Positions 6,175 through 26,752 of a stretch of 64,000 nucleotides of DNA are shown one piece after another. The notes below the pieces were generated by a model. The model did not search any database. It was not told the origin of the DNA and worked only from the letters and a program-made list of their open reading frames with translations. Both the position numbers and the translations under genes were made by a program. Origin of the DNA: Arbacia lixula (taxonomy: Eukaryota > Echinodermata > Echinoidea > Arbacioida > Arbaciidae); the NCBI GenBank assembly GCA_963669155.1, contig OZ022576.1, positions 7,421,038-7,485,037 on the forward strand, read 5' to 3'. Every line of letters begins with the position of its first letter. Position 1 is the first letter of the stretch.

Positions 6175-6228
6175 ATGGAGCTAAGAAGAACATGGATGCT
6201 ACGGCTGACTGTGGCTATTTTATTAGGG
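6175..6228 (+). CDS. exon 1: signal peptide
   Basis: ATG in the context 'cgccATGG' opens [18 protein letters not shown], a short signal peptide with a basic n-region and a hydrophobic core. The exon closes at a strong GTGAGT donor in phase 0. A longer overlapping frame from 6045 is rejected because it is in another frame and lacks a signal peptide. The phase joins exon 2 exactly. Confidence 0.75.
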
Positions 6229-9200
6229 GTGAGTTTTTTCGATCCATACAATATTATCTTTTTACTAACTAAAAAACAACATTCGTAATTATTTTGCATA
6301 ATACTGATTTCCCTCACTATAGGAATCACAAAACCATGACTTTTTATTTTGTTTTTCTTAGGGCAAGATGTTATATTTCACTTGTCTTGGTTATCATTTT
6401 TCATGAACTTTGTTCATGTTACTTTGTATAATGTTTGGAATGGCGATCCCCATTTTTTTATTCAAGCAGTTCATATTTTTGCATGAATTGCTTGTTTTAC
6501 GAGAGTGACGATAAAGTGAAATCTTTCACAAAATCAGACATTTTTTCCATCAATGGAATTAAATTGCAACCATTTCAGTTTTCGAAATAAATCCCTTAAC
6601 AAGCTGATCGTGGAACTTAATGTTTAATTGCTATCGTTCCCTCATCAAATATAGGAATGTGCTGGTCTGTTACCTCTATTTATTATTCAGACAACTTTTC
6701 ATTGTTTGACTTCTCTGCCACCCCTCTTATGTATATGGGAATGTAGCAAATTTACAAGACATAATTCTAACTTCTAACAGACAGAAACTCACGTTAATTA
6801 CTGTAATGGCACGAAATCGTAAAAGAAATGATTAAGCACAGCTAACGAGTACATGCGAACTGTGCATCATATCCCATAATAATATCCGTTTTGATCTTGA
6901 AGGTGCTCTAGCATGACTTTGTATCTTGTACAGGTACTATTGAGAGTTGCGCATCATATTTCATAATCATATCTCATTATAATCTCTGTGTCTATCTGAT
7001 GAGTGCTCAGAAAGATCGTTGTGTCCTGTACGGGTGCTATTGCGAATTGTTCTTCATATTTCATTATCATATCTCATAATGATTTCGCTGTCTTTCTTCA
7101 AGGTGCTCCAGCATGGCTTTGTGTGTGGTACGGGCACCTTCAACCTTGAACTGCAGTCGTACGTCGGCGACGCGCGCGACTTCAACTACGACTGCTGCGA
7201 CGAAGGGGTAATCACGTGTGGTGGATGCGATATCTCCTTCACCATCTGCCTCGACGACTTCCCAAGGTCAGTGAGATCGAACGATTTTTTTTAAATATAA
7301 TATGTAGACTTCTTCATTTGGTCATTCATTTTGATATTTTAACAACACGGAATACGTTTAGATCTATATCATATTTCGTTTTGCGCATGGTATGCTTTTA
7401 TTCAATGCAAACATATTTACCTTGGAAACATCAACCATCTTCTTAAATGAACTGGGTGGATTACTTATTAATCAACCAAAATATACTTTAAACAAATCAG
7501 AATTGACACTTATCAAAGTTCTGATTCTTTAAATAATGATTTAATATTACAAAATCAACTTGACATTAAAATAAGTATAATGTTATCCTCCCCTAAGATC
7601 ACGTCTGATTGTAAATATTCACGCATCACTGAGCATATATATATATATTCACCTAACAAACACAACGTCTGTTAAAGAAATACATTGATTCAACATTGGA
7701 TATTATTGCTTAACTGAATCAGATACACAACAAACCAGATAGCCGCAGCACTGAAGCGCAGCTAACTACAACAAAATGAAACGTTGCAGCGCGAAATTAT
7801 AGACAAATTCGGTCACCGTGGCGATTTCCTATGGCGCAACAATCTAGTTCAGACGTTGCACAGGGTGTACTTGCGGATCATTCTGCGGATCATTCTGCAT
7901 GTCTCGCTCCGCGGAGGCGCAACGACGGTCTTGCATATTTGAAAACTGCATTTGTTAAACAATGATTCCCTTTTGTTGATGTACATTGACAAATAGCAGG
8001 ACCTGCTATGATGAGCAGGAATGTGCAGTTTTTCATTTCGATTTATCTTGTACCCCTCGTTTCCATGTCACACGCCAAGTGTAATTGCTTGCAATTTGGC
8101 AGGGGTGTTTTTATCCTCATTAACTAACTTCTGTGTGAAAATGTGATTGATCCGTCAAGTCATGCATGAATGAGCTTGCATTAAAGGTAAACGTGTCGCT
8201 TTTCATAAGTCACAGGAGTCCATTTTTTAACCCCCAAAAGAGTAAATAATAGTATTTTTTGCTTTGTTTATGTAGTGTGAGCGCAATGGCATTGCTATAA
8301 CTTCTTATGTTTTTAGAAAATGTGAAGATATATTTTACTGGAAAAAAAATAATTTGACTTTTTGAATAAACTTCATGGATTTCACCATTTCAAGAATTAG
8401 AAATGCTGAAAATGTTTGAATTGAGCCCATTCAACCCTAAAAAAAAATATTAAAAGTGTGAGGGGATGTGTAAGGGGGTCAAACGATCGATGATTATCAT
8501 AAATAGCACTTGATTATTCACCAAAAACAGAATTGGTCGAAATCCTGTACCACAATTCCCCCAAAACGACCCTTGTGAATTTTGAAAAGTGACATTTTTG
8601 CAATTGATATGTGCTCACTCATGCATGACTTGACCGATCAATCAAATTTTCACACCAAAGTTAGCCAATGAGTGTAGGAGCGCTCCTGACATATTATTTT
8701 GCTCAAAACCGTTTTGTTAAAAAGTTATGCTATTTTGAAGGGGGGTGCTTACTTTTTTGTTGTGTTTATATCTTCCTCGAATATTCAACTAAACGATTCA
8801 ATCGATATATGTTAAATAGATGGATCATTTCTTTGCTTATTTGTGAGTTTCCTATTAGGTGGTGGTTGGTTGGTTAGTTGGTAGGCTGGTTGGTTGGTTG
8901 ACTAACACTAAATGGGAAACTTCATTAAGCCATTGATTGCAGAATATAGAGCCATTTAGAGACTGGTACGAGAGTTCATTACGTAACCACTTTGCCCCTG
9001 AACAGGCGGAGGCAGTCTCCTCTGAAGCGCTCATTGATGAGCACGTAGACCACGGCATTGACTGCATGGTTAAGCGCGCGGATCGTTAGGGCGAAGTACA
9101 CGGTCCTGGCCCCAGCTTGGCTGGACTGGAACTTCTCCAGCGCTTCCTCGGGAAAGTTCTCAAAGACCACACTCGGGAGGGTGGTGACGATGAAAATGAC

Positions 9201-11329
9201 GGTGAGGACCAGCAGCATTATGGTCATGCTATCTCGACGTCGAGCGCGATGGCGCTTTGTTGAGCGTTGCTTGAACTGCAACGTCGGCGCAGCACTTTGA
9301 CACGGAAAGTTGGAATGGGATAAGATATCTCGATTCTCAGGCAATGTTTCAGTGACACGTCCACTGTGGTTGCTCGATGAGAAGCCTAGCATGTCTTCTC
9401 TTGGGTGTGGCTTGGTAGCCAGAGTTGCACTCACACTAGGTGGACGCCTGTCTACTGCTGACAGCGAAACTTCAGATACAGCCCCGATTCCATGAGCAGG
9501 TTCCCTCTTGGTATCTAACGTAGGCCTATCTAAAGGTGGAGATGTTAGAGAATATTCTTTCCTCAGAGGGATTGGTGCATTTGAATTCTTCGGGTGGGAC
9601 TCTGCTTCAACACTATCATTTGGAAGTTTAGTGTTCGTATGCATAGGCGCTCTACTTGATGTTTCGTGTTCGGATTTTTGACTCGAATATCCTGGTTGAC
9701 ATGTTTCTGCCACCTTGGGATAAACGCTACTTATGAAACAACTTTCCCCGCAACTTTGTTTCCTTTGAGAGTAATTTTTTAAAGTATGTGTATCCGGTTG
9801 CACATTGTCTCCAATACCTTGATTCACTCTCAGCGTACTTTCCTTCATGACAACGAAGATTTTCCCGTAGCACAACAGCGAAATAATGACCGTCGAGAAT
9901 ATCAACGTCAGAAGAACGTTATAGAAACGTGACACGCTCACCGGACACTGAAATATACACGCGACGCTCGAACCAACATCGACACGACGCGAGTATAATG
10001 CAGCTGGAACGTTCAGCAACGCACTCAGTGTTAGACCACACGCTGCTGCTAACCAGGTACGACGTGTCGAACTACCCCAGCCGAACGGACGACAGACGGC
10101 CGTGTAACGATCAAAGGCGATCATCGCCGTAAGCATCGCGGAATAGACAGCGGTAATCCTGCGAGAATAGCCGAGACCGGCACACAGGGGCGTGGTGCGA
10201 GGGCCGTGAAGCCACACCATTGACGCAACGAGAGCGCCGCATCCTAAAAAGTCTGAGATAGCCAGGACGCAGATGAGAATGTTTGTCGATGTCTTGTGCC
10301 GCTTGCGGCCGAACACAAGAAGGATCAGCGCGTTCCCGGGCAGCCCAATGAGGATAAGTGTACATAACCACACCGTAGTCAAAAGCTCAAGAGCGTCCAT
10401 GTTAACCCTTTCTCTTTCAGTCAAAAATAATGCTCTATGGGAGTTATGTGGGGTAATTCTGCCAAAACGCCACAGTGGCTTAAACAGAGTTAATATGCTG
10501 GATCGATATCCATGAACAGATTTACCACTGGATATGCAGGTAGTGAGACAAGACGCAAAAACACTTCCTTGATCTCCGCCGATAGGAGGAAATGTGACTT
10601 CCTGATCAACCTTTGTCAGCGATTATTGGCATAAAGCACCAAACTGTGCGCGTATGTCAAATAATAGTAGATTATATAACGTACAGTGACATTTAAACAT
10701 GTGTGACAGCTGAATAAGAGCAGAACGATTTTCCACAAATGAAACCTATCGAACGTGCTGCGCACAATAATGAATGTCTCAGTCTGTCTCCGTTACAATG
10801 AGCACGGCTAAACGAAAAGCTCACGAAAGATTGCTGTTTGCACAGGGGGCATGTTGCTATGACTTCATTATGTATGCACTGTTTCAAGAAAGCACATTCA
10901 TTGGGGTATCTATATCAGACGCCCATTCCTCTTCCCCTCTTTCACTACCACCACAAACAATACCTTCTTCTTTTAAATGTCATGTTATTATACCCCACGC
11001 GAATGATGCTTTATGATGTAGGTTCTCCCGCCCAATTTTAGCAGTTTGTTCGTCATATTCGTTACTGAATTTCAATTTAAATACGTTCAGGGATGCGGGC
11101 GATAGGTTGATATTGATTTATTTTTTCTGCATATAACTTATTTCTGAATCATTCAAGTGTTTTTGTAACGGTCATATAATTGAAAATGTGAGAGGAGACA
11201 GGGTTCCATGCCTTCATTTTCCCATACTGTTAAAATCAAAGGACATTAAAGAAATGGAGAAGAGCGGAACATACCTGATTATGGGACCCGTATCAGGCAT
11301 GTAGATCTCTCTCTCTCTCTCTCTCTCTC

Positions 11330-11378
<49 letters not shown>

Positions 11379-13148
11379 TGAAAGAAATGGATGAAGAGAA
11401 CAATGGTAGGCGTAGCTTAAATCAAGGCTCCCCAGAGCTATCTACCCTTTGGAAAAATTGGTAATGCCGAAAAAATGTCTCTGCCGGGAATCGAACCCGG
11501 GCCCCCAGCTTTGAACGCCGGTGCCTTAACCACTAGACCACAGAGACGGGTTAGTGGCTAAGGCGACCCCGATCCGATTGACCGTCAGATTGACAAATTC
11601 TCGACACTATACCAATTATGATTTCCTTTGTTGGGTGTAGGTGGGTTTTGAACAATGACAAGCCGCCATGCCTCAGCTGGATCAAAGCTATTTCTTTGAT
11701 GCAGTACACGTATGGGAGAAAGTATATAAATGTGAGAAATTATACATATACAACAGCTTTGGCAACTCTTTTATTTAAATATTTTGTGAAAGAAATGGAT
11801 GAAGAGAACAATGGTAGGCGTAGCTTAAATCAAGGCTCCCCAGAGCTATCTACCCTTTGGAAAAATTGGTAATGCCGAAAAAATGTCTCTGCCGGGAATC
11901 GAACCCGGGCCCCCAGCTTTGAACGCCGGTGCCTTAACCACTAGACCACAGAGACGGGTTAGTGGCTAAGGCGACCCCGATCCGATTGACCGTCAGATTG
12001 ACAAATTCTCGACACTATACCAATTATGATTTCCTTTGTTGGGTGTAGGTGGGTTTTGAACAATGACAAGCCGCATTGCCTCAGCTGGATCAAAGCTATT
12101 TCTTTGATGCAGTACACGTATGGGAGAAAGTATATAAATGTGAGAAATTATACATATACAACAGCTTTGGCAACTCTTTTATTTAAATATTGTAATAATA
12201 CCATTGTTCTCTTCATCCATTTCTTTCACAAAATATTTAAATAAAAGAGTTGCCAAAGCTGTTGTATATGTATAATTTCTCACATTTATATACTTTCTCC
12301 CATACGTGTACTGCATCAAAGAAATAGCTTTGATCCAGCTGAGGCATGGCGGCTTGTCATTGTTCAAAACCCACCTACACCCAACAAAGGAAATCATAAT
12401 TGGTATAGTGTCGAGAATTTGTCAATCTGACGGTCAATCGGATCGGGGTCGCCTTAGCCACTAACCCGTCTCTGTGGTCTAGTGGTTAAGGCACCGGCGT
12501 TCAAAGCTGGGGGCCCGGGTTCGATTCCCGGCAGAGACATTTTTTCGGCATTACCAATTTTTCCAAAGGGTAGATAGCTCTGGGGAGCCTTGATTTAAGC
12601 TACGCCTACCATTGTTCTCTTCATCCATTTCTTTCACAAAATATTTAAATAAAAGAGTTGCCAAAGCTGTTGTATATGTATAATTTCTCACATTTATATA
12701 CTTTCTCCCATACGTGTACTGCATCAAAGAAATAGCTTTGATCCAGCTGAGGCATGGCGGCTTGTCATTGTTCAAAACCCACCTACACCCAACAAAGGAA
12801 ATCATAATTGGTATAGTGTCGAGAATTTGTCAATCTGACGGTCAATCGGATCGGGGTCGCCTTAGCCACTAACCCGTCTCTGTGGTCTAGTGGTTAAGGC
12901 ACCGGCGTTCAAAGCTGGGGGCCCGGGTTCGATTCCCGGCAGAGACATTTTTTCGGCATTACCAATTTTTCCAAAGGGTAGATAGCTCTGGGGAGCCTTG
13001 ATTTAAGCTACGCCTACCATTGTTCTCTTCATCCATTTCTTTCACAAAATATTTAAATAAAAGAGTTGCCAAAGCTGTTGTATATGTATAATTTCTCACA
13101 TTTATATATATATATATATATATATATCGTTATCTCTCTCTCTCTCTT

Positions 13149-13185
<37 letters not shown>

Positions 13186-14651
13186 ACCACAAGTATTCCT
13201 TACTGTATCTTTAACCGTGCAACCGTAATACTAAATACACGTCACATTCGCCTGCCTAGAATGTCTAAATATTTGTCTTTGATTTTCTCTCCATATTTGG
13301 AATAGAACTGGGTCATGCCATTATATGGACGTGAGCACGGGACTGGTGGAGGAGAACTCATCGTCTATATCATTCGGGACGGTGGTGGGCAACACGAGTA
13401 ACCCCGTCGAATCCACGTTTAATGAGTGGCCGGTGAGTCGACCAGACTGTAAAGATGTTTAACTCTTTGTGTGCCAGAGAAACTCCTGTTCTATGTGTTT
13501 TTTGTGTGTATTGTGTAAATACAGAGCCACTGCAGGCACTGGCCTGTTTGGGAGTGTCCTAGAAAAAAAAATGGTTCACCCAAAATTATTTTTGGCTTAA
13601 GTTGAGGTAAAACCCTTCAATTTCATTACGACTTGGATTGCGCCATTGCCTCCCTGCAGGGTACGGTGGAGCTTCGCATATCCGTCTTGGACATCGACGA
13701 CGTCGATTCCACGCTCGTGGACAGCTACACAACGATCATCTCGGGCACGCCGGGTGCGTCATTGGCCGACTCCACGACGCAGCAACTCCTGTTTTCTGGT
13801 TCCCGCTCTGTCGCCAAAACCAGGTAAGAAGAAATGAAAACATAAAGTCAATTACTTCGCAAATCCAACTTCAGGAAGATGCCAATGATGAATGTAATAG
13901 ACAACCCATTCCATCTTGCTCAATATTTACAAACACTTAGTTCACCGTTTTTATCCACGAGAGCTGTCGGAACATGCACCGATTTTTCTTTTCATTTTAT
14001 AATCTTTACGTTTGCTTACAGTAAGTGCATTGTGTTGATACAAGGCTTGTTCCAAAAGGAACGGAACCATTGCTGATATATATTACGCAGATTGCGTAAA
14101 CTGTCAAATTCAATTTATTTAGCATTCGTCAATGTAACACAGTTTAATGAACGTTATCATTATAAAAAATATATATTTTTTGTGACTCAACTTTTTCAGT
14201 GTGTTCTCTGCTAGAATGGCTTTTTAGCGGGGAAATGTTTCCAATTTATAATGTTTACACAACGTGTATTACTCGACAAAAGGAAGCGTGACAGAAATCA
14301 CCCAGATTTTAGTTATTGATAGATTTTTCTGAGCACTCCCTCGGTAATATGTAGAAACGAAATATCCATCTTCCAGTAAATCATTCGATGTACATGATGT
14401 GGTGTTCCATTGAAGCCAATGTAAATGGCATACACAATTTGTGAATGTATTGTCACTCGCAATCTTTGTCAAAGTAGGGCACTGAATGCTGCAATAGTCA
14501 TGGAAAGTGCTTCTAGCACGGTATAGTGCGCACATCAACAAATTGGTTCACATATTCCATTAAAAGCGCGTCTCATTTTTTCACACATCCGGAGAATATT
14601 TTTATTCTGATGGAGTGCAACACATAAGTAAGAAAAACAAAGAAGCAATTG

Positions 14652-14699
<48 letters not shown>

Positions 14700-14882
14700 A
14701 TTCCATCCGGTCTGCTTTTATTTAATTTTCTCTTTCTCCCATTTACCCAGCATCATATATTCTTTATTATTTTAATTTCTTTCCCTTTCATTTCATTTAA
14801 ACTGTCTTTTCTATATCCCTTTATATTTCACTTATGCATTACACTATGCCTGTACCCCTGTCTTTCCGACCCCCCCCCCCTC

Positions 14883-14917
<35 letters not shown>

Positions 14918-17900
14918 GCTATCAATTATTACCTGTAAACACTTCTCTTCTTTTCCTCTTTCTCCACTTTTCCTTGTATTCCATACATGATCTTATTTCG
15001 CACTCATACGGGACTATGTATATTATTGTCTCTGCATTATACATCGACCCCCCCCCCCCTCACTCTCTCTATTTTCCCATCTATCTAGCTTGCAGGCAGC
15101 CTACTCCCTGTTTTGTGACGAATACTACTACGGCACGTCTTGTGGAATCTTCTGCCAGGCTACAGATGACGACTCTGGCCATTATACCTGCGACACTGAT
15201 GGCTCAAAGTCCTGCCTCGACGGATACGAAGACCCAACCTCCGACTGCACCACCGAAATTGATGAATGTGTCACGAGCAATGTCGTGTGTCTCAACGACG
15301 GTACCTGCGTGGACGAGTATCTGGGATACTCCTGCGCATGCCCGCCGTTCTTCAGCGGAGACTTCTGCGAGACGGCCTCCGAGTGTCTCAGCATCCCGTG
15401 TCAGAATGGAGGCACTTGCACAGAGATGACCGTAAGTGGGTACAACTGCACCTGCGCTTCGGGTTATACCGGTACCAACTGCGAGATTGACATCGACGAG
15501 TGTGAGAGTAACCCGTGTCTGAACGGTGCTACCTGTGTGGATGAGGTTGATGGTTTTAGATGCGAATGCCTAAGCGGGTGGGAGGGGGCCACTTGCGAGA
15601 GTGAGACCGATGAATGTGCCAGTGGGCCATGTTTCAACAGCGCTACATGTCTAGACTTGTTCGATGCATACCAATGCAATTGCGCCTCTGGGTATATTGG
15701 CACGAATTGTGAGACCGAAATCAATGAGTGTGAGAGCAACCCCTGCCTGAATGGAGCGACATGTACTGATGAGGTGGATGGCTACCAGTGTTCCTGCGCG
15801 GACGGCTACTCTGGTACCGATTGTGACGTAGAGATTGACGAATGTGGCAGCACACCTTGTGAGAACGGCGCCACCTGCACGGACAATGTTAATGGATACG
15901 TGTGTACATGCGCAGCTGGGTATGAAGGTTCCAATTGCCAAGTGGACACGGACGAGTGCGCTAGTAACCCTTGCTTCAATGGCGCGACGTGTCAAGATCT
16001 TGTTGATGGGTACCAATGCGACTGCGTTGATGGCTACGAAGACCCATACTGTGAAACAGAGACGAATGAATGCGAGAGCAGTCCGTGTCAAAATGGAGCA
16101 ACATGCTCAGATGAAATCAACAGTTACCTGTGCGCCTGCGCATCTGGATTTCAGGGAGCAGAATGCGAAGTCGATATCGATGAGTGTGCAAGCTCTCCAT
16201 GCTTGAATGAGGCCACCTGCCAAGATTTAGTTGACGGTTACCAGTGCGACTGTGTCGATGGATTCGTAGGAGACAACTGCGAAGTAAACATCGACGATTG
16301 TACTTCCGTGCAATGTTTGAACGGGGCTACGTGTGTCGACGGAATAAATAGCATATTTTGCGATTGCGCGGAGGGCTTCGAGGGATTATTCTGTGGGATT
16401 AACATTGATGATTGCGAGGCCAACGACTGCGAGAATGGGGCATCATGTGTCGATGATATTGGAGGGTACTACTGTGAATGTCCATTCGGTTATGATGGGA
16501 TGTACTGCGAGGTCGACATCGACGAATGCTCCAACAACACATGCGAGAACGATGCTACGTGCATTGATCGAATTGCAGGCTATGAATGCGACTGCGCCGA
16601 TGGTTACGATGGGCTCTTCTGTGAAAATGAGATCGACGAGTGCGCCGGATTTCCTTGTAAAAACGGCGCCACCTGCACTGATCTGGTTGCCAGGTTCGAA
16701 TGCACTTGCTTTTCTGGATTCGAGGGTACTCTTTGTGAGTACGAAATAAATGAATGCGCAAGCAACCCATGCTCTGTCAATGCTTCAGATTGCGTTGACG
16801 CATTGGATGGGTATGAGTGTGTTTGCTATCCAGGCTATGAAGGGGCGGACTGTGGGATAGACATCGACGAATGCGCCGATGCTCTATGCCAAAATGGGGC
16901 CACGTGCTTGGATTTGGTTGCAGATTACGAGTGCGCGTGTGCGCCTGGTTACGAGGGTACGCTCTGTGATACAGAAACAGACGAATGTCAAAGTAATCCC
17001 TGCGAAAACGGTGCTACCTGCATAGATGACTTAAACATGTATACGTGCTCTTGCGTCACTGGCTTTGAGGGAAGCCAGTGTGAGATCGACATCGATGAGT
17101 GTGCTAGTAACCCATGTCCAAGCAATTCGACATGCGTCGATGGCGTCAATGGCTTTACGTGTGCATGTACCCCAGGCTACGGTGGTGATCAGTGCGAGTA
17201 TGAAATCAATGAATGTGACAGTGACCCATGTCAGAATGGGGCAACATGTACAGATGATCTCAACCAATACGATTGCGCGTGCGCAGCCGGGTTTGAGGGT
17301 GACGATTGTGAAATAAACATCGATGATTGCGAGGATAACCTTTGCGAGAATGGTGCCACCTGTTCGGATGGCATCGAAGAATACAATTGTGTCTGCTTCC
17401 CAGGATTTGAGGGTTCGTACTGCGATGTCAATATTGATGACTGTGCTAGTGATCCTTGCCAGTACGGCTCGCCATGCGTTGATGGTGTTAATAGATACTT
17501 TTGCAACTGTACTGCTGGATACGAAGGTGGCGACTGTGAACTAGAGACAGACGAGTGTGCAAGCTCACCCTGTCAAAACGGAGGCACCTGTGTCGATCAG
17601 TTGGATGGTTATACTTGCTGCTGCGAACCAGGTTATGAGGGTCAGAATTGTGGCATCGAAACTGATGAGTGTCAAAGTAATCCATGTCAGAATGGAGGCA
17701 CTTGCAACGACGTTCTGGATAGATATATGTGCACCTGTCCCCGAGGGTTCATTGGGCGTGAATGTCAGTTTGAGATAAACGAGTGCGTTTTTAACATGTG
17801 CGAAAATGGGGCCACGTGTGTTGATGAGGCAGGTGGTTATTCATGCCTTTGTGTTCCTGGTTTTTATGGCGACAGGTGCGAAAATGAAACCAATGAATGT

Positions 17901-20900
17901 GCAAGTCTGCCTTGCCAGAATGGAGCTACGTGCAATGATCTGGTTGATGATTACGCATGCCAGTGTGTCCCTGGGTACGAAGGGATTGACTGCGAATTCG
18001 ACATATTCGAATGCATGAGTGACCCATGCCAAAATGGAGGGGATTGCGAGGACAGGCTCAACGGTTACTTCTGTCAATGTCCATCTGGATATGAAGGAAG
18101 GGACTGTGAAAGAGAAACGAATGAATGCGACAGCAACCCGTGTCAGAACGGCGGTGAATGTGTTGACCAATTCGACGGCTATACATGTTGTTGCCTTTCG
18201 CCATATGACGGTCCCAACTGTGAGTACGAGAAGAACGAATGTTTGAGTGAGCCATGCCAGAATGGAGCCAGATGTATTGATGGCTTTGATGAATACAGGT
18301 GTGAATGTGTTCAGGGATATGTGGGTCGAGAATGCCAATACGAAATCAACGAGTGCATGCGAAATGTTTGCGAAAACGGGGCAACATGCGTAGACGAGGT
18401 CGGGCAGTTTAGGTGCATCTGCGCTCCAGGATACGAAGGACTTCTGTGCGAGCTTGAGATCGATGAGTGTCTAAGTAATCCATGCCAGAATGGAGCACCC
18501 TGCAAAGATATGCTGAATGGTTATAACTGCCAGTGTCTCCCAGGCTTCCAGGGACGACTGTGCGAGATCAATTTCGATGAATGTGCCAGTCATCCATGTG
18601 AGAATGGTGGGCAATGTATTGACTTGGTCGACGGATATCAGTGTAATTGTTCCTCTGGTTTCAGTGGTCCTACTTGCCGCGCAAATATCGACGAATGTCA
18701 AAGCAGCCCTTGTCGAAATGGTGGCATCTGCATTGATGGCATCGCGGATTTTACTTGCATGTGTGTTGATGGGTTTAAAGGCAAAGTATGTGAGATTGAC
18801 ATCGACGAATGCGCAAGTCACCCATGCAGAAACGGTGCAACATGCGTCGATCGTATCAATGGGTTTAATTGCCATTGTGTACTAGGCTACACAGGACCTC
18901 AATGTGGCCAGGAAATAAACGAGTGCCAAAGTATGCCTTGCCAGAACGGTGGTATATGTACAGATTTGCTCAATAACTATTCGTGTGATTGCAGGCCTGG
19001 ATTTGAAGGGAAACGTTGTGAAATTAATATTGACGAATGTGCTAGCATGCCTTGTCAAAATGGTGCAACCTGCGTTGATCAAGCTAATAAGTATCATTGT
19101 GTTTGTCAGACAGGTTTCATGGGCCAGTTATGTGAGCTCGAGAAGAATGAGTGTGCCAGTGGTCCTTGCAGACATGGTGCCACGTGCGTCGATCTTATCA
19201 ATGAGTATAGGTGTGAATGTCCCCCTGGCTTCCATGGTCGCGACTGCGAGCGTGAGGTTAATGAATGTCAGAGTGAACCTTGCCTTAACGGTGGTACATG
19301 CGTTGATGAAGTCAATAGATACAGCTGTATTTGTCTCCATGGATTCTATGGGATGTCATGTGAGACTGACGTAGACGAGTGTGCCAGTCAGCCATGCCAG
19401 AACGACGCTACGTGTATCGATGTAGCGGGAGGATATCGATGCGAGTGTGAACGGGGCTTTGATGGACAGGTTTGTGAGTTTGAGAAGGACGAATGTGCGT
19501 CGCACCCCTGCCGTAATGGCGGTATATGCCATGACAGATTTGATGACTATGAATGTGTGTGCATGCCCGGCTTTGAAGGACGCGACTGCCAGATAAACAT
19601 AGATGACTGCGCTAGTCATCCGTGTCAAAATGGAGCTCGCTGCGAAGATGGTATCGAACAATACAGGTGCGTGTGTAAGCCTGGGTATTTCGGCAGAGAA
19701 TGCGAGTTTGAATGGAATGAATGCATCAGTTTTCCCTGTAGAAATGGGGGTACGTGCAGAGATGGGGAAAACAGCTACCAATGTGAATGCGTCCCTGGAT
19801 TCTATGGACAGAACTGCGAGATAGACCACGATGACTGCGCAAGTCACCCATGTAGGAATGGGGCGCACTGTGTTGACCAGGTTGACGGATATCACTGCTT
19901 ATGCGCTCCAGGATATTACGGGCGAGATTGTGAGAGAGAAGTGAACGAATGTGACAGTCACCCTTGTCAAAACGGCGCCACTTGCGTAGACAGGTTGGCA
20001 TACTATGAATGCCGGTGTGCACCAGGGTTCTTTGGTCGGAACTGCGAGACAAATCGCAATGAATGTGAGAGCCATCCCTGTCAAAACGGAGCAACTTGCC
20101 TTGATGGCGTTGATGGTTATCGTTGTGAATGCACAGTTGGTTTCTTCGGCAAACTTTGTGAGATGGAGAAAAACGAATGCTCTAGTATGCCATGCTTGAA
20201 CGGCGCGTCGTGCGATGATAGAGTTGGTGGTTATCACTGCACTTGCGCACCCGGATATGAAGGCAGGAATTGTGAGATTGATCGCAACGAATGTGCCAGC
20301 AACCCCTGCTCACATCACGCAACCTGTGTGGATGAAATCGCCGATTTCCGCTGCATATGTCCACCTGGTTTCGGAAGCAAGACATGTGATGAAGACATTA
20401 ATGAATGTGCCAGTAACCCGTGCTTAAATGGTGGAGTGTGCTTTGATCAAATTGCCAACTTTCACTGCGACTGCGCGCCTGGTTTCGGTGGTAAAGATTG
20501 CGGCATGAATATAGATGAATGCATGAGTGCACCATGCAGAAACGGTGCTACATGTGAGGATCAGCTTGACCGATATGAATGCCATTGTGCACCAGGGTTT
20601 TATGGTATGTTCTGTGAAATGGAAAGAGACGAGTGTGCCAGTCATCCTTGTGTTAATGGAGGCAGATGCGAAGATAGAATCAATGATTACGTTTGCAACT
20701 GCCCTTCGGGATATGTTGGCAAAGATTGTGAGATGGAACGAGATGAGTGCATGAGCATGCCTTGTCAGAATGGCGGTACTTGCGCAGATCGTTTCGATGC
20801 GTATGTTTGCATTTGTCCTAGAGGTTTCATTGGCTGTAACTGTGAAGAGAATGTTGACGAATGCGCCAGTCAGCCGTGTATGAACAACGGGCTCTGTATT

Positions 20901-23900
20901 GACGGTGTGGACAAATATGTTTGTCAGTGCGTCTCTGGTTATGAAGGCCGCAACTGCGAAGTAGAGCGAGATGAGTGCGTTAGCCGCCCGTGCCTCAATG
21001 GCGCAACGTGTCTTGATCGCTTTGATGACTACGACTGCGTCTGTTTACCTGGATTTGTCGGTCACAACTGCGAGGTGAATGTAAACGAATGTGACAGTCA
21101 TCCATGCAGAAATGGGGGTACTTGCTTCGATGAAGACGCAGATTTCAGGTGCGTGTGTCATCCTGGTTTCGTCGGTAAGGCATGTGAGGTCGATTTTGAT
21201 GAATGCATGAGCCATCCATGCGAAAATGGTGGTATCTGTCATGACATGATCGATGATTTCTCCTGCCAGTGCCAGCCCGGCTTCAATGGGAAGCGGTGTG
21301 AGGTTAACATTGACGAATGCATGAGCATGCCGTGTGTGAATGGAGCCACTTGTCGCGATATGGTAAATGGTTATGCGTGTCACTGCCTGCTTGGGTTCTC
21401 TGGATCGTTCTGCGAGAGGGAGATCAACGAATGCGACAGTCACCCTTGTCTAAACGGAGCAACCTGCACTGATGAGCGCAACGGATACACATGTCAGTGT
21501 ACACCGGGCTATGCAGGAAGCTACTGTGAAATCGACTGGGATGAATGCCTCAGCAACCCTTGCCAGAACGGAGCGACTTGCAAGGATCGAGTTGCTGCAT
21601 ATGAGTGCATGTGCGCCGATGGCTACGTTGGACACGACTGTGAGACTGAGATCGATGAGTGTGGGAGCAACCCGTGTCTGAACGGAGGCCGATGCGAGGA
21701 TCGCATCGATGGCTACATGTGCTACTGCGCAGACGGGTTCCGTGGTCACGACTGCGAGGTTGACGTCGATGAGTGCATGAGTTTCCCATGTATGCACGGG
21801 GCGACTTGTTTAGATAAGGTAAATAGATATGAATGCCATTGCGTTCCTGGTTTCGAAGGAGTTAATTGTGAAATTAACCGCAATGAGTGCATGTCGCATC
21901 CTTGTCTGAACGGTGGATCGTGTCAGGACATGGTCAACGGATATAAATGTAGATGTCATCCCGGTTTCATTGGGAGAGACTGTGAAATTGATGTGAACGA
22001 ATGCGATAGCCATCCTTGTCAGAATGGCGCTACCTGTGAAGACAGGGAAGGCGCGTTTAGGTGTATTTGTCCAGTCGGATACTACGGAGAAGACTGCTCA
22101 TCTAATGTTGATGACTGTCAAATGAATCCCTGCAAAAATGGAGGTACGTGCCTGGACGAGGTCAATGGGTACAGATGTCTATGTAAGCCAGGTTTTGAAG
22201 GGCAAGATTGTGAGATAAACCCTGATGACTGTCTTCAGAACAGGTGTGCAAATGGGTCTCTATGTGTTGATGGTCTGAATGACTACACATGTTGGTGTCA
22301 GCCAGGTTTCACCGGAAGATATTGTGACGTTAACATTGACGATTGTGCCAGCGATCCTTGCCTAAATGGGGGAAGATGCCGCGACGGAGTCGATGAGTAC
22401 CGCTGTGAGTGCCCACCGGGCTTTGGAGGCCGGAACTGCGAAACGGACTTAGATGAATGCCGCAGCCATCCGTGCCAGAACGGCGGCAGCTGCTACGACG
22501 GTGCCGGTGGATACAGGTGTTACTGCCTTCCAGGATTCACCGGCACAGACTGCGAGCTGAACGTGGACGAGTGCATGAGCCGTCCCTGCTTGAATGGTGG
22601 TACCTGTGTCGATGGGGATGCCACGTACAGGTGCATGTGTGCTCCTGGCTTCACGGGTAGAAATTGCGGGAAGGAGCAGAATGCTTGCAACAGTCATCCG
22701 TGTCTAAACGGTGCCACTTGCCGTCCGACTGAGGACAGCTTTTCGTGCGATTGTCCGCGAGGTTTCCAAGGCCAGAGGTGTGACATGGATGTTGATGAAT
22801 GCTCAGGGGACCACCCCGTCTGCCCGCCAAACAAGGTGTGCCACAACACGTGGGGCTCTTATGATTGTGTCTGCGAGAGAGGGTTCATCGGTGAAAACTG
22901 TGACATTCCTGTTAATCCTTGCACCTCGTCGCCCTGCAGAGCTGGCACCTGCATGAACTATGAGGCTGGAAAATACAAGTGAGTACGATGAGCACAGCCG
23001 CTTTCTCAGTTACATATCATGGAAAAGTAAACGCCACAAATCAATACGATCATAAATCATAAGAACCGCTGGGATCTTCATTTCATATGTCACAAGCACA
23101 TTGAATAAAGATTAACAGAAGTGTTCACATTTCTTCAATAGAAATACTTTTGAAATCATTCAAGAAGGTGGCACTTTCTTGTGGTGGTGTTGATGTTATT
23201 CAGACTAGCATTATAGCTAGGTCTGTATTTCGTCAACATGACAATGTGTATATAGCATTGATCTTAACCATGTTAACAAACGAACTTTGTCACCAGTACA
23301 AAAATTGAAATTAAAAACTGTTTTAATTCGTGATCATCTATTATCTATATTCTTCCCTGTTCTTTATCGCACTCTTAATTTTTGCTGCTTCTTCCTTCAC
23401 ATCGTATAGGTGCGTCTGTCCTCCCGGCTATCGTGGGGAGAACTGTGAAGACTTTGAGCTAGATCCCTGCCAGCGTGAGCCATGCCAGAACGGTGGTGAG
23501 TGCTTCTCCGAGGGACCACACGATGTCGTCTGCAAATGTCCTGTCGGCTTCTTTGGTCAATTTTGCGAAATAGGTAGGTGTAAACTGGCGCGGATAACTA
23601 AAGTCAATCATTTTTTTTTTCAAGTGAAAGAGGTGGTATCACACCCAAAAGTTTGTATACAACTATGAAGGGTATAGCAGTCCATAGAGTGTTACCTGAT
23701 TATTCAGTACTGTCTATGTAGGGGTGGTAAGAATGGAGCTAACTTAGTAGAGCCATTTCATGTGCTAAGGTGTATTCGTGGTCAATCGTGGTCAATCGTG
23801 CTTTTCTGTTAAAGTCTATCATAGTTATCACTACGATTGACCGATACCTCTGATAGATTTTTCTTGAGGCTACCATTGTACTGTTCTCTAACACTTGTAC

Positions 23901-26285
23901 TATATTCGCTAGGTCTAACAATCCGATGCAGCAGTACTGCCATGACTGTCATCGTGCCGACTGAGGTACCAGGTATGGATATGCCGTGGTCGGTCAGCTT
24001 TGCAGATCCCACTTGTCGCGGAACCGCACTGGGAGAGGAAAATGTCCTTCTGTCAACGCCCTTCGACGAGTGTGGAACAAGGGTAGAGGTAGGAACAGGG
24101 ATGTTGATATCCTTACAATTCACAAACTAATTGATGGCAAAAAAACATATATTTGTTCCTCGGGGGATTCAAAGCCGACGAAAGGATTGCCTCAAGGGAT
24201 GATGGGGAAAGAAAGGGGGTGGGTCTCCCTCAGTGATCCCTTGCAGTTTTCATTCACCATGTTCACGAGAATTAAGAGGTCCTCAGGGGTTGACGGAAGG
24301 AGGAGGAGTAGGCAATATTACTCCATCCTTCATCCGAAGGGTCTTAATATGTCGATCGATAGCGAATCTATGAGGTAACTATTTCAAAGACATGAGAGCT
24401 ATCATATCAAATCTTATATTGCTTGTTCACGTATCGATATATTGTAATTATACATAACAAAATTGACTTAGCAATCTGATTAATTTAGATATTGTCGATT
24501 TGTGTTCGCCACCAAAAAATGTCATTCTTTGTTTATATGTTTGAATGTAGGTCACAGGGATGGTTCTCAGATTCCACAATGTCATCTCCTTCCCGAAACC
24601 CGAGCCAGACAGTGATGACGAGAGGGCTCTAGGCTCAATCCGTCACGACCATCGCCAGTTCGTTCCTGTACAGTGTGTGTTCTCTAGCAACCAGTTCTCT
24701 AACTCGGAGGCAGACGCTGTCGTGGACAGTGTGTCATCGAACAACGACCCCTCCGTTAGCTCCGAGGAGCTGACCGGACGCGGGATGTTTGACCTGAGCA
24801 TCAAACAGTACCGCGACGAAGAGTTTTCAAGTGTCATCCCGAGCAGCGACAAGGGTGACGAAGTTGAGGTGGAGATGGGGCAACAGCTGTTCTTTGGCGT
24901 CAATCTTGAGACGGTGAATGGGTTCAGCCTGTTCCTTGATACCTGCTGGTTGACTCCTTCAGGTGGCCTTACTGATGATATCAAATACGTCTTCATCTCA
25001 GATGGGTTAGTGTTTTTGATGGACATTCTTTATTCATTTCTTCACTTATCTTTTTATTCCCCCTCTCTCTATTTCGTTTTTGGATATTAGGAATCAAGTA
25101 TTCTCTTCTCTCAACATAAGTCAATATAATATAATCGGAGGTAGGTAATTCTTCATTATAAAAACATATTATTATGATACATTCATTATGGTATCGAAGT
25201 TTTCATTGTGTGGTATTTATATGCAAATTCTATTCATTTGCTCATGTGATTTCTTCAGGTGCCCGGTCGATGGTTCTGTGCAGGTTCACCGATCTCCTGA
25301 CCCCAAGGTTGCTAGGTTCTCTGTGCTGGCCGGAGAGTTCCTGAACAAACTTCCTCAGGTAAGTTGAGCTATGTTATCAATCGTTTCAAGCATTCGTCTT
25401 CAGGAAATTTAAGTAAATGTTCATGTGTATTTTCGTCTTGTTTCACGGATTTGATATAAGACATTACTCTGGTATCTCAAAAATCTTGTTTCAACCCCCA
25501 CAGTATAAAAGTTGTTCGATGGTCAGCGATCATCATCATGATAACAATGATGACAAAAAGGATGATCCTTGCTTGGTCATATTAGAACATTGGTTTTTCT
25601 CCTTTTTCGTTTGTTTCCAGGCGTTTATGCACTGCCATGCCCGTGTGTGTGATGTACAAGACCCCAACTCCCGCTGCGCGCTGGGCTGCCTATCCCGACA
25701 CGCCCGGACCCGGCGTGATGTTGGCGTCAGCAGCTCGGCTGCCCTGACCGCGTCGGTCTCACATGGACCGATGCACATCAGACGCCGCCGAGAAATGAAT
25801 GGACAGCTTCCTCAAGGCAATGCCCAGACCTCTGGTATGTTTTTATTTTCTACTCCATCTTCCTTCTGTTCCTTTATCTCCTTGTCCTCACCTTTTGACT
25901 TCTTCCTTTATTATATCTTCTGTCTCCTTAGGTTTGTTACCTTCTGCTCTTCTTCCTCCCTTTTCTACTTCTTCTCTTTCTAACTTCTTGTCCATCCTTC
26001 TCTTCATACCTCTTCCCATCCATCTCCTTTCGCTTTTTGTTCTCCTTTCTCCCATCTCCTTACTATCGCCTCCTCCTCCACCTCCCACTTCTACTTCTTC
26101 TTGTTTAAACTCCTTCTCCTTCTCTCATCATTAGGCCTATCATCTTCTATCGCAATGCCATGTGGACGATGTTGCTGATAACAAAGGCGCCATATCGTCC
26201 TAATAACCTGGCAGCAACATTACATCCCTTTAGACATCTCATTATGTCACTATTTCTCCTAACCTTTGAGAATATGTAATTTTCT

Positions 26286-26333
<48 letters not shown>

Positions 26334-26752
26334 GAATACAAATGCATCTTTAATTCAACAAGCTGAAAGTTTATTGCATTGACGGCAGACTCCATCAGGC
26401 TTTTAATTTGAGCCATTTGAAAAAATTGTGCAAAACCTCTCGCAAGATCAGTAGGGTGTAACTATCTGCTTTTAACTCACATTCGGTAACACAAAAACCG
26501 TTCCATATTGGATGCGTGTGGATAACATGTACGCAGGGTGCATAACGAGCTAAGTAACGATTGTCTTTCTCTCGTCGTCTTGTTTACTTCTCTACAGACG
26601 TTCAAACTACTACAAAGATGGCATTCTCCACCGTAGCTGGCGGTGTGCTGTTTGTAGCCATGGTCGTAGCAGCGGTGGCGGCCGTCGCAGTCAGGCAAAT
26701 CGGCAAGCGGCACAGCACAAAGACAACTTTGGATCATATCACCTCCGAATAG
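6175..26752 (+). CDS. giant MNNL-DSL-EGF(69)-ZP transmembrane protein (11 exons, whole gene)
   Basis: Joined exons: 6175-6228, 7103-7266, 13306-13432, 13660-13823, 15089-22978, 23410-23573, 23913-24088, 24551-25005, 25259-25358, 25621-25834, 26598-26752. All phases match and the sum is 9663 nt (3220 residues plus stop). Domain order: signal peptide (1-18), MNNL plus C2-like head as in Delta/Jagged (about 20-176), DSL (177-223), 69 EGF repeats (227-2853), ZP module (about 2856-3124), furin-type RTRR (3127-3130), membrane helix (about 3178-3200), and a tail of about 20 residues. The head and DSL are characteristic of Notch ligands; ZP modules polymerise into extracellular filaments. The inferred role is a type I surface or matrix protein possibly related to Notch signalling. 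DSL ligand-face residues differ from Jagged, so Notch activation is uncertain. Exon boundaries are read from splice consensus only. Intron 2 contains an antisense GPCR gene and a tRNA-like palindrome. Confidence 0.85.
6864..7142 (+). repeat. three-unit tandem repeat overlapping the start of exon 2
   Basis: Three diverged units of about 87-100 bp begin at 6864, 6951 and 7051, each with 'catcatatttcataatcat'-like sequence and ending near 'ggtgctctagcatgactttg', 'gagtgctcagaaagatcg' and 'ggtgctccagcatggctttg'. The third unit contains the real acceptor and first codons of exon 2. The first contains a near copy of that acceptor region with an in-frame stop (GTG CTC TAG). Confidence 0.8.
7103..7266 (+). 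CDS. exon 2: MNNL domain (Notch-ligand N-terminus)
   Basis: Preceded by acceptor 'tctttcttcaag'. Encodes a segment with [11 protein letters not shown], then [22 protein letters not shown]. This follows the MNNL pattern of Delta and Jagged (F-x-L-x-L, a CC pair, then C..C...F..CL). Ends AG|gtcagt in phase 2. A second donor 4 bases downstream (gtgaga) would break phase with exon 3. The acceptor edge of this exon belongs to a three-unit tandem repeat (see 6864-7142). Confidence 0.85.
8115..8673. mobile_element. foldback (long inverted repeat) element in intron 2
   Basis: The left arm near 8116-8175 (with 'gtgtgaaaatgtgattgatc' and 'gtcaagtcatgcatgaatga') is the reverse complement, with changes, of the right arm near 8610-8672 ('tcatgcatgacttgaccgat', 'caaattttcacaccaaag'). 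Similarity continues inward for over 100 bp. The centre is AT-rich and non-coding. No TSD defined. Confidence 0.75.
8979..10424 (-). CDS. intronless class A (rhodopsin-like) G protein-coupled receptor, orphan
   Basis: 481 residues; stop TAA. TM1 has GLPGN (N31), TM2 LAISD (D58), TM3 begins after C81 and ends in FDRY (105-107), TM4 has W124, ECL2 has C156/C160, TM5 ends LLCYGKI, the third intracellular loop is about 205 residues and Ser/Thr-rich, TM6 has P417, TM7 has NAVVY (456-460), and helix 8 follows with FRGDCLRLF. So the seven-helix class A frame is complete, in one exon. Odd: the TM6 toggle Trp of CWxP is Thr (TTLP), and the NPxxY Pro is Ala. The N-terminus before TM1 is only about 12 residues; Met-9 is an alternative start. 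The ligand cannot be told from sequence. The gene lies antisense inside intron 2 of the EGF/ZP gene. Confidence 0.9.
   Translation of the reverse strand: MTERERVNMDALELLTTVWLCTLILIGLPGNALILLVFGRKRHKTSTNILICVLAISDFLGCGALVASMVWLHGPRTTPLCAGLGYSRRITAVYSAMLTAMIAFDRYTAVCRPFGWGSSTRRTWLAAACGLTLSALLNVPAALYSRRVDVGSSVACIFQCPVSVSRFYNVLLTLIFSTVIISLLCYGKIFVVMKESTLRVNQGIGDNVQPDTHTLKNYSQRKQSCGESCFISSVYPKVAETCQPGYSSQKSEHETSSRAPMHTNTKLPNDSVEAESHPKNSNAPIPLRKEYSLTSPPLDRPTLDTKREPAHGIGAVSEVSLSAVDRRPPSVSATLATKPHPREDMLGFSSSNHSGRVTETLPENRDILSHSNFPCQSAAPTLQFKQRSTKRHRARRRDSMTIMLLVLTVIFIVTTLPSVVFENFPEEALEKFQSSQAGARTVYFALTIRALNHAVNAVVYVLINERFRGDCLRLFRGKVVT
11309..11374. repeat. (CT)n then (AT)n bordering the tRNA palindrome
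   Basis: CT run 11309-11329 and AT run 11333-11374 directly abut the left end of the palindrome. The right end at 13104-13183 has the matching order (TA)n then (CT)n. The microsatellite may mark the original insertion or recombination edges. Confidence 0.85.
11476..11547 (-). tRNA. tRNA-like gene, anticodon UCA, copy 1
   Basis: 72 nt with discriminator A. Acceptor stem GTCTCTG/CAGAGAC (7 pairs), D stem GTC/GGC, anticodon stem CCGGC/GCTGG, loop GTTCAAA, variable loop GGGC, T stem CCGGG/CCCGG with loop TTCGATT. A box TGGTCTAGTGG and B box GGTTCGATTCC match consensus, and a T run follows. The body resembles tRNA-Glu, but the 7-base loop puts UCA at positions 34-36, so it would read UGA. Too short for tRNA-Sec. 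Confidence 0.75.
11884..11955 (-). tRNA. tRNA-like gene, anticodon UCA, copy 2
   Basis: Same 72 nt sequence as copy 1, one 408 bp unit downstream in the same orientation, with intact internal promoter boxes and T-run terminator on the minus strand. Confidence 0.75.
12468..12539 (+). tRNA. tRNA-like gene, anticodon UCA, copy 3
   Basis: Inverted copy on the right arm; the sequence from GTCTCTG to CAGAGAC plus A is unchanged and is followed by TTTTTT at 12540-12545. Confidence 0.75.
12876..12947 (+). tRNA. tRNA-like gene, anticodon UCA, copy 4
   Basis: Fourth identical copy, 408 bp from copy 3, followed by TTTTTT. All compensating stem pairs are kept in all four copies. Confidence 0.75.
13104..13183. 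repeat. (TA)n then (CT)n at the right edge of the palindrome
   Basis: TA run to about 13126, then interrupted CT run to 13183, about 120 bp upstream of exon 3. Confidence 0.9.
13306..13432 (+). CDS. exon 3: C2-like part of the Notch-ligand head
   Basis: Acceptor 'ggaatag', donor 'gtgagt'; phase 2 in, phase 0 out. Encodes [20 protein letters not shown], then [20 protein letters not shown] and P. The last part is equivalent to the 'F.NPI..PF...WP' strand of Delta/Jagged C2 domains. Separated from exon 2 by the 6 kb intron that contains the GPCR and tRNA palindrome. Confidence 0.8.
13660..13823 (+). CDS. exon 4: C2-like domain, beta strands before DSL
   Basis: Acceptor 'ctccctgcag', donor 'gtaaga'. 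Encodes [20 protein letters not shown] followed by a Ser/Thr-rich segment and [12 protein letters not shown]. This corresponds to the 'GTFSLIIEALHTD' strand and following region of Delta. Phase 0 in, phase 2 out. Confidence 0.8.
14654..14916. repeat. (CT)n and poly-C tracts in intron 4
   Basis: CT run 14654-14699, pyrimidine-rich middle, poly-C 14870-14893 and a second CT run to 14916. A further poly-C lies at 15050-15058, just before the exon 5 acceptor. The remainder of intron 4 (13824-14650) shows nothing recognisable. Confidence 0.9.
15089..22978 (+). CDS. exon 5: DSL domain plus 67 complete EGF repeats in one 7.9 kb exon
   Basis: The acceptor is 'ctatctag' (AG at 15087-15088). The nearby 'ttgcag' would put the exon out of phase. 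The first about 55 codons give a DSL domain, then 67 EGF repeats follow with a period near 38 residues (114 bp), and repeat 68 is interrupted by the intron after KYK. Most repeats begin with the calcium-binding D/N-x-D/N-E/D-C pattern. About 56 of 69 carry C-x-S-x-P-C, the O-glucosylation consensus, and most have S/T before the third Cys, the O-fucose site. No stop interrupts the reading frame. Donor 'gtgagt', phase 2. An intron-free array this long is unusual, since animal EGF genes usually place introns between repeats. Confidence 0.92.
15108..15248 (+). other. DSL domain coding region
   Basis: Six cysteines with the family framework C-DEYYYG-C-..FC-..DD..GHYTC-...G.K.C-LDG....-C. This is diagnostic of Delta/Serrate/LAG-2 Notch ligands. 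At the positions of the Jagged1 Notch-binding face, the Phe before the third Cys is kept (GIFC). However, the following R-x-R is Q-A-T, and the FF before GHY is DS, so the binding face is not conserved. Confidence 0.9.
15258..22978 (+). repeat. 114 bp coding repeat array (EGF 1-68)
   Basis: Tandem coding units of about 114 bp, most of them exactly 38 codons. Departures are repeat 1 (40 residues), repeat 14 (39), repeat 67 (40) and the N-terminal repeats near it. Repeats 21 and 26 share an unusual CCC in place of C-x-C, and repeats 22-24 resemble 27-29, pointing to a five-repeat block duplication. Repeats 7 and 9 are near copies in their first 27 residues. Confidence 0.9.
23410..23573 (+). CDS. 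exon 6: end of EGF 68 and EGF 69
   Basis: Acceptor 'catcgtatag'. Continues [14 protein letters not shown], then [19 protein letters not shown], then [16 protein letters not shown]. Donor 'gtaggt', phase 2 in and phase 1 out. Here, unlike exon 5, an intron falls inside an EGF repeat. Confidence 0.85.
23913..24088 (+). CDS. exon 7: ZP-N, first half
   Basis: Encodes [18 protein letters not shown], then [11 protein letters not shown], then [12 protein letters not shown]. This is the ZP-N signature (C..M.V.VP, DP.C, F.ECGT). Acceptor 'attcgctag', donor 'gtagga', phase 1 in and 0 out. A donor six bases earlier (24083) would also be in phase and remove only V-E. Confidence 0.8.
24551..25005 (+). 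CDS. exon 8: ZP-N end, linker and start of ZP-C
   Basis: Acceptor 'tgaatgtag'. Encodes [20 protein letters not shown], an acidic/Ser-rich linker, 'FVPVQCVF' (fourth ZP-N Cys), then [11 protein letters not shown] and KYVFISDG. The 'DTCW.TP' block is a standard ZP-C landmark. Phase 0 in, 2 out. Donor 'gttagt' is a weaker consensus. Confidence 0.85.
25259..25358 (+). CDS. exon 9: ZP-C
   Basis: Acceptor 'gatttcttcag', donor 'gtaagt'. Encodes [20 protein letters not shown] and [13 protein letters not shown]. This matches the usual ZP-C spacing of a Cys right after 'I..GCP' and an 'F....F' pair before the HC motif. Phase 2 in, 0 out. Confidence 0.85.
25621..25834 (+). CDS. exon 10: ZP-C end and furin-type cleavage site
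   Basis: Acceptor 'tttgtttccag', donor 'gtatgt'. Encodes [18 protein letters not shown] (the 'HC...CD....C..GC' end of ZP-C), then RHARTRRDV, a good R-x-R-R site as in other ZP proteins. A second basic cluster IRRRRE follows about 24 residues later. Phase 0 in, 1 out. Confidence 0.85.
25850..26130. repeat. polypyrimidine stretch in intron 10
   Basis: About 280 bp of degenerate CT/CCT sequence between the exon 10 donor and mid-intron. No coding signal. Intron 10 also has a clean (CT)n run at 26286-26328. Confidence 0.75.
26286..26328. repeat. (CT)n microsatellite in intron 10
   Basis: About 21 uninterrupted CT units upstream of the last exon's acceptor. Far enough away (about 270 bp) not to be the splice polypyrimidine tract. 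Confidence 0.95.
26598..26752 (+). CDS. exon 11: transmembrane helix, cytoplasmic tail and stop
   Basis: Acceptor 'cttctctacag'. Encodes [15 protein letters not shown], then the helix [16 protein letters not shown], then [19 protein letters not shown] and TAG. The basic RQIGKRH after the helix fits a type I topology with a 20-residue cytoplasmic tail and no recognised signalling motif. Phase 1 in. Confidence 0.85.

Follow-up and report, generated by a model that had tools for sequence, protein, structure and literature searches.

A predicted gene of Arbacia lixula joins a DSL head and 69 EGF repeats to a ZP module

We describe a predicted gene of Arbacia lixula, here called the DSL-EGF-ZP gene, at positions 6175-26752 of the plus strand of a 64,000-nt window in contig OZ022576.1 (the window is the whole stretch of DNA that was analyzed, and positions without a contig name refer to it). 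Its product would be a giant, probably apical, extracellular fiber protein with a ligand-derived head, formed when ZP exons were added to a DSL-EGF gene; the protein would polymerize, and the head would serve as a tip for adhesion or membrane binding. We judge this reading to be modestly probable.

The order of parts in the predicted protein was confirmed: a signal-like N terminus, MNNL/C2, DSL, 69 EGF repeats, ZP-N, ZP-C, the furin-type site RTRR, an EHP-like (external hydrophobic patch) strand, a membrane span, and a 19-aa tail. An earlier note on this DNA had proposed the succession of MNNL/C2, DSL, EGF, and ZP-N/ZP-C from the letters, and a Pfam profile search of the joined parts recovered MNNL, DSL, ZP-N, and ZP-C above their cut-offs. 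The scores were 42.5 bits for MNNL (cut-off 22.5, with the 160-aa head as query), 49.0 bits for DSL (cut-off 24.2), 32.5 bits for ZP-N (cut-off 24.7), and 85.9 bits for ZP-C (cut-off 24.6). MNNL was absent from the Pfam listing at E<=0.1 when a 351-aa head fragment was the query, and an exon-by-exon MNNL search of the genome, which gave four matches, missed the DSL-EGF-ZP gene. In phmmer searches against PDB, the C2 and DSL of the joined head aligned to human DLL1 (4xbm) over 216 residues with E=2.8e-23. The part before the DSL domain, used alone, matched 7alk ("Neurogenic locus protein delta") with 4.2e-5 and DLL1 with 4.7e-4, and the ZP part matched uromodulin, in ZP-C, with E=6.5e-12.

The interval 6175-26752 reads as a single gene. 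The 11 exons, joined by script, give 9663 nt and 3220 aa with the sole stop at the end and no internal stops, which reproduces the total noted earlier, and GT-AG borders are found at all ten introns. The DSL domain (15114-15248), with six cysteines and a contact loop for which 12 residues were recorded, shares one exon with 67 EGF repeats. This long exon 5 (15089-22978, phase 2 in and 2 out) belongs to an open frame of 2663 codons; it also contains the start of EGF68, the remainder of which lies with EGF69 in exon 6 (23410-23573, phase 1 out). The DSL-EGF part is joined to the ZP part by this split repeat and by a 339-nt phase-1 intron. No in-frame ATG was found upstream in the frame entering exon 7, so the ZP half cannot start alone without an upstream exon. 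The single gene of the earlier note is thus upheld by the shared exon, the split EGF68, and exon borders that match those of relatives. The 2663-codon frame and the 69 intact EGF patterns rule out chance or a pseudogene as an explanation.

The window's own assembly (607 Mb, 590 contigs) was searched with the DSL, MNNL, and ZP profiles; the resulting lists of 15 DSL and 26 ZP matches are lower bounds. The DSL matches comprise Delta, Jagged, the DSL-EGF-ZP gene, one MEGF-type sequence, and 11 further DSL domains. Four of the latter lie at 48.73-48.82M on contig C1 (paralogues A, B, C, and D), four at 25.35-25.50M on the same contig, two on C7, and one on C13. The MEGF-type match (C1:8252165, 30 bits), 0.8 Mb from the ZP of the DSL-EGF-ZP gene, was dropped by eye because it reads as a MEGF-type run of EGFs. 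Around paralogues A-D we found MNNL exons (A, B, and C), followed by a DSL exon and EGF exons. With 16.0 bits for A and 21.3 bits for B, the MNNL exons of these two paralogues fall under the cut-off of 22.5, and none of the four MNNL matches in the genome (Delta, Jagged, and two on C1 near 25.35 and 25.49M) corresponds to A-D. EGF counts by pattern, which are rough and confined to the scanned ranges, were 44 for A, 16 for B, 8 for C, and 19 for D. A further member, L044 (C1 25.447M), has 49 EGFs reaching the edge of the examined stretch, and A and L044 are the stretches with at least 40 EGFs among the paralogues. To judge from these gene models, long EGF stalks that bear a ligand head are a family trait in this genome and not unique to the DSL-EGF-ZP gene.

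The 3' ends of paralogues A, C, and D were compared with that of the DSL-EGF-ZP gene; L045 contributed the first of its two 3' EGF exons. In A, C, and D, two 3' EGFs are followed by other exons and then by a membrane span. No ZP frame was seen in these 3' parts, and no ZP match of the genome search falls there. Among the 15 DSL and 26 ZP matches there was no second DSL+ZP gene, the next nearest accepted DSL/ZP pair being about 4.4 Mb apart on C13; a ZP end on a DSL-EGF gene was thus found once in the genome, as far as these profile matches indicate.

The gene model draws its strongest support from the comparison of introns within the genome. Exon 1 (6175-6228, phase 0 out) carries the ATG and, by eye, a hydrophobic segment resembling a signal peptide (18 residues); its placement is a reading of sequence alone. 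Exon 2 (7103-7266, phase 0 in and 2 out) encodes the first half of MNNL/C2, and its donor, five codons after a cysteine and in phase 2, is found at the same place in four of the four genes compared (the DSL-EGF-ZP gene, A, B, and C). The middle of MNNL/C2 is encoded by exon 3 (13306-13432), which ends in EWP at a phase-0 intron, as in paralogue C and in the genome's Delta and Jagged, with which this intron after WP is shared; the matching exon of paralogue A ends in WT instead of WP. Exon 4 (13660-13823, phase 2 out) encodes the end of MNNL/C2 with the acidic loop DIDDVD. The DSL exon starts eight residues before the first cysteine, in phase 2, in five of five genes (the DSL-EGF-ZP gene and A-D). 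Delta and Jagged of this genome are without the mid-MNNL and pre-DSL introns: their MNNL exons continue to WP, and their DSL frames reach further upstream, with no AG there. The penultimate EGF is split just before Cys-x-Cys in phase 2 in the DSL-EGF-ZP gene, A, C, D, and L045 (5/5), and the exon of the last EGF has a phase-1 end two codons past the final cysteine in the DSL-EGF-ZP gene, A, C, and D (4/4). Exon 6 is the last element that the DSL-EGF paralogues have in common with it.

From exon 7 onwards, the introns match those of the genome's ZP genes. Exon 7 (23913-24088, phase 1 in and 0 out) encodes the first part of ZP-N; it ends at a phase-0 GT on the fifth residue after a ZP-N cysteine, a position found in all five ZP sequences compared (the DSL-EGF-ZP gene, L001, L002, L003, and L008). 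Exon 8 (24551-25005, phase 2 out) contains the end of ZP-N, a linker with an IHP-like (internal hydrophobic patch) segment of 10 residues, and the first part of ZP-C. The next junction, in phase 2, follows the D of the final strand ahead of a ZP-C cysteine and is shared with L005. The middle of ZP-C lies in exon 9 (25259-25358, phase 2 in and 0 out). Exon 10 (25621-25834, phase 0 in and 1 out) encodes the end of ZP-C, the cleavage site, and the EHP-like strand; a phase-0 acceptor before this HC exon is present in four of four genes (the DSL-EGF-ZP gene, L001, L002, and L003). Taken as a block, exons 7-10 are entered and left in phase 1. Exon 11 (26598-26752) encodes one membrane span (about 26633-26692, by eye), the 19-residue tail, and the stop codon; it is entered in phase 1, whereas the exon of the membrane span in A, C, and D is entered in phase 0.

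The two halves thus join at the phase-1 intron after the last EGF, and the ZP exons appear to stand at the point where A, C, and D have different exons followed by a membrane span of their own. The 5' introns match those of the DSL-EGF-membrane family, and the 3' introns match those of ZP genes in this genome. Exon shuffling explains this most simply: a block from a ZP gene would have been set after the exon that ends the EGF array of a DSL-EGF gene.

The EGF array (15267-23566, with intron 5 inside EGF68) consists of exactly 69 units in a parse of the cysteine pattern, the same number as in the earlier note; Pfam found 66 EGF stretches in the reading frame of exon 5. Exactly 114 nt make up 64 of the 69 units, and linkers of 5-7 residues leave no room for a further module between EGFs. 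The DNA identity among the 64 units of 114 nt has a mean of 0.551 and a maximum of 0.719, which excludes a recent tandem array or an expansion in the assembly; judged by this divergence, the array is old. Of the 69 EGFs, 35 agree with the strict calcium-binding consensus, and 64 agree with its N-terminal part if E is permitted at the first position. The O-glucose consensus is present in 56/69 EGFs and the O-fucose consensus in 47/69. In the cysteine-pattern parse EGF1 and EGF2 have ordinary loops and no short loops of the DOS type.

The furin-type RTRR and the single membrane span noted earlier are both present, after a ZP module that looks complete. RTRR (25705-25716) is located where ZP proteins have their consensus cleavage site (CFCS), and a putative EHP strand of 11 residues (25747-25779) was recognized by eye from its position and GP motif. 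Read by eye, the order of cleavage site, EHP, and membrane anchor is kept, with 15 residues recorded ahead of the span. The ZP genes L001 and L002 likewise have RRRR followed by a GP-containing strand, and the same order up to the EHP. The IHP-like linker segment of exon 8 aligns to GMFTVRMALF of uromodulin. A study of uromodulin describes how cleavage frees the EHP, whose place is taken by the linker through donor-strand exchange (PMC7737619).

The Notch-binding face of the Jagged1 DSL domain is described as F199, R201, R203, D205, and F207 (PMC3415683), and the F207A change brings Notch binding down to background (PMC3888931). In the alignment, these positions read F, Q, T, D, and S in the DSL-EGF-ZP protein, which keeps two of the five residues. 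They read L, K, R, D, and F in human DLL4 (three kept), L, T, R, D, and F in the genome's Delta (three), and F, R, R, D, and Y in its Jagged (four). Human JAG1, DLL1, and DLL4 and the genome's Delta keep R203 and F207. DLL4 and the genome's Delta and Jagged all have R203 and D205 together with an aromatic side chain at 207; of these the DSL-EGF-ZP protein retains D205 alone. Among the paralogues, the residues are F, R, R, D, and R in D, and Y, L, R, D, and L in both A and B. A short-loop EGF follows the DSL domain in the genome's Delta and Jagged, in contrast to the ordinary EGF1-2 of the DSL-EGF-ZP protein. At the position of the acidic C2 loop DIDDVD, which by eye resembles a calcium-binding C2 loop, the stretch in A and C is acidic as well and ends in DDKID. 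One study gives lipid binding as a known property of ligand C2 domains (PMC3888931). Canonical activation of Notch by the DSL-EGF-ZP protein appears unlikely because R203 and F207 are changed, EGF1-2 are not of the DOS type, and the tail has 19 residues. The Notch-ligand head proposed in the earlier note stands as a matter of descent and probably fails as a matter of function, with Q, T, and S in place of R201, R203, and F207 and an ordinary EGF1-2.

Under the fiber reading, the precursor would be held in the membrane by its single span until a furin-like cleavage at RTRR frees the EHP strand. Head-to-tail assembly of ZP-C and ZP-N, in the manner of uromodulin, would then yield filaments or an apical matrix, the location being our supposition. 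The EGF rod would project from the filament with the C2-DSL head at its tip; an EGF repeat is about 3 nm long, which would give a rod of the order of 200 nm. By analogy with uromodulin, we infer filaments that display the C2-DSL head. The head may act as an adhesion or membrane-binding tip and not as a canonical activator of Notch, because the DSL domain is without R203 and F207, EGF1-2 are not of the DOS type, and the tail is only 19 residues long. We consider a fibrous matrix protein that inherited its head likelier than a canonical Notch ligand.

Several points weigh against parts of this account. ZP modules do not universally polymerize, and a ZP-N tyrosine implicated in polymerization appears by eye to be F here (RFHNVI). 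In L002 and L006 the frame reads past a possible GT at the phase-2 ZP-C junction, and the direction of the shuffling was inferred from one genome. The splice sites were set by reading the letters, and the gene is known here from its DNA sequence alone. The exons before the membrane span in A and D, themselves placed by eye, had no match in Pfam, and those of A had none in PDB. Genuine ligands also vary at the contact face, as DLL4 and the genome's Delta (3/5) and Jagged (4/5) illustrate. One study describes the C2 face of the ligands as a second Notch-binding site (PMC5538765).

We consider one alternative possible, though unlikely: the protein could be a non-canonical regulator of Notch, with the C2-DSL head, made soluble or filament-bound by cleavage at RTRR, binding Notch and inhibiting signaling or concentrating it locally. 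Both C2 and DSL are recognizable, the equivalents of F199 and D205 are retained, the acidic loop DIDDVD looks by eye like a calcium-binding loop, and the genome's own Delta keeps just three of the five contact residues. The T and S at R203 and F207, which human JAG1, DLL1, DLL4, and the genome's Delta keep, argue against such a role, as do the ordinary EGF1-2 and the 19-residue tail.

It is likewise doubtful that the protein remains a long membrane-bound rod that never polymerizes, its ZP module only dimerizing or anchoring while the head probes distant cells. Such a rod would suit the single membrane span and the near-constant spacing of the 69-unit array, and no ZP was seen in paralogues A, C, and D, which have similar stalks and a membrane span. 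However, RTRR and the EHP-like strand are ordered as in other ZP precursors, including two ZP genes of the same genome.

Less probable again is a hybrid polymer of ligand and receptor character, in which the head would bind Notch-like EGFs, either on a second molecule or on a DSL-EGF paralogue, in an adhesion or matrix system outside Notch signaling. The basis for this reading is that C2-DSL heads are carried on Notch-type EGF rods, as judged by the O-glucose (56/69) and O-fucose (47/69) consensus counts.

Intron 2, which is 6 kb long, has features of its own. On its antisense strand lies a single-exon frame of a class A G protein-coupled receptor (8979-10622, minus strand; Pfam 7tm_1, 93.2 bits), which from its sequence is a nested gene. 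Between exons 2 and 3, at 11364-13059, the intron also contains an 828-nt inverted repeat with 100% complementarity, a 40-nt spacer, and 408-nt units. The repeat carries four tRNA-like sequences, for which ARAGORN gave the anticodon TCA. It is either a very recent palindrome or a fold-back of the assembly; an artifact could affect the linkage of exons 1-2.

That a DSL-EGF gene and a ZP gene, adjacent to each other or brought together by a chimeric assembly, were wrongly joined here is very improbable: the halves do bear the gene structures of two different families, and intron 2 does hold a perfect inverted repeat and an antisense receptor frame, but the repeat sits in the MNNL part, away from the DSL-EGF/ZP junction, that junction is bridged by the split EGF68 and the 339-nt phase-1 intron, the frame into exon 7 is without an upstream ATG, and the ZP half is near-identical to one place in the genome, the next best reaching at most 44%.

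Other observations concern the two gene families in the assembly. The loci L024-L034 (C1 48.725-48.835M), L044, and L045 belong to an expanded MNNL-DSL-EGFn family with variable Notch-contact loops. Near-identical DSL exons on two large contigs, at C1 48.798M (L014, paralogue C) and C13 22.849M (L016), suggest a recent duplication or a misplaced haplotig. ZP matches are concentrated, five each, at 137-197 kb on C10 and 27.84-27.94M on C3, which are probably tandem clusters of ZP genes.

Compared with known systems, the fiber reading has both familiar and unfamiliar parts. The canonical DSL ligands (Delta/DLL and Serrate/Jagged) also have MNNL/C2, a six-cysteine DSL domain with YYG and GHY motifs, EGFs, and one membrane span, and DLL1 and Jagged1 are the best PDB matches of the head. 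They have up to 16 EGFs according to one source (PMC3415683), whereas the DSL-EGF-ZP protein has 69, no DOS-type EGF1-2, changes at R201, R203, and F207, ZP and RTRR before the membrane, and a 19-residue tail. The DSL-EGFn-membrane family of the same genome is closer, with MNNL-DSL followed by many EGFs and, in the members examined, the mid-MNNL, pre-DSL, penultimate-EGF, and last-EGF introns; it differs in having no ZP seen and, in A, C, and D, other exons before a span entered in phase 0.

The ZP end has its likenesses elsewhere. Uromodulin and other ZP polymers share the ZP-N, linker, ZP-C, cleavage site, and EHP; uromodulin is GPI-anchored (glycosylphosphatidylinositol) with four EGFs and a D8C domain, and no DSL is part of that description (PMC7737619). 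FBN-1 of Caenorhabditis elegans has many EGFs, a C-terminal ZP, a furin site after the ZP, and a membrane span (PMC4395870), and Dumpy of Drosophila has many EGFs, a C-terminal ZP, and a membrane span, together with DPY repeats (PMC10597583). An MNNL/DSL head is not part of the descriptions of either in the available portions of these papers, which are the basis of the comparison (PMC4395870, PMC10597583). FBN-1 and Dumpy may serve as working analogues of a matrix fiber with a repurposed head. Unusual DSL arrangements have been reported from cnidarians (PMC2770060). No described family with the DSL-EGF-ZP order was found in the titles and abstract starts of the literature searched, a body that leaves most subscription journals outside, and an unnamed database entry of the same architecture may exist. 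The novelty claimed in the earlier note survives to the extent that no described DSL-ZP family emerged from that literature; it is reduced by the long DSL-EGF stalk, which the genome's own family shares, and by the plan of EGF, ZP, and membrane span, known from FBN-1 and Dumpy.

To a specialist, the EGF-ZP part will be familiar, and the surprise lies in the order of head plus ZP. The structure of this gene, in which a DSL-EGF gene and a ZP gene are joined at a phase-1 intron, shows how a family of signaling ligands can become matrix. The 11 further DSL matches, with their variable contact loops, make a role of the DSL domain outside canonical Notch signaling testable.

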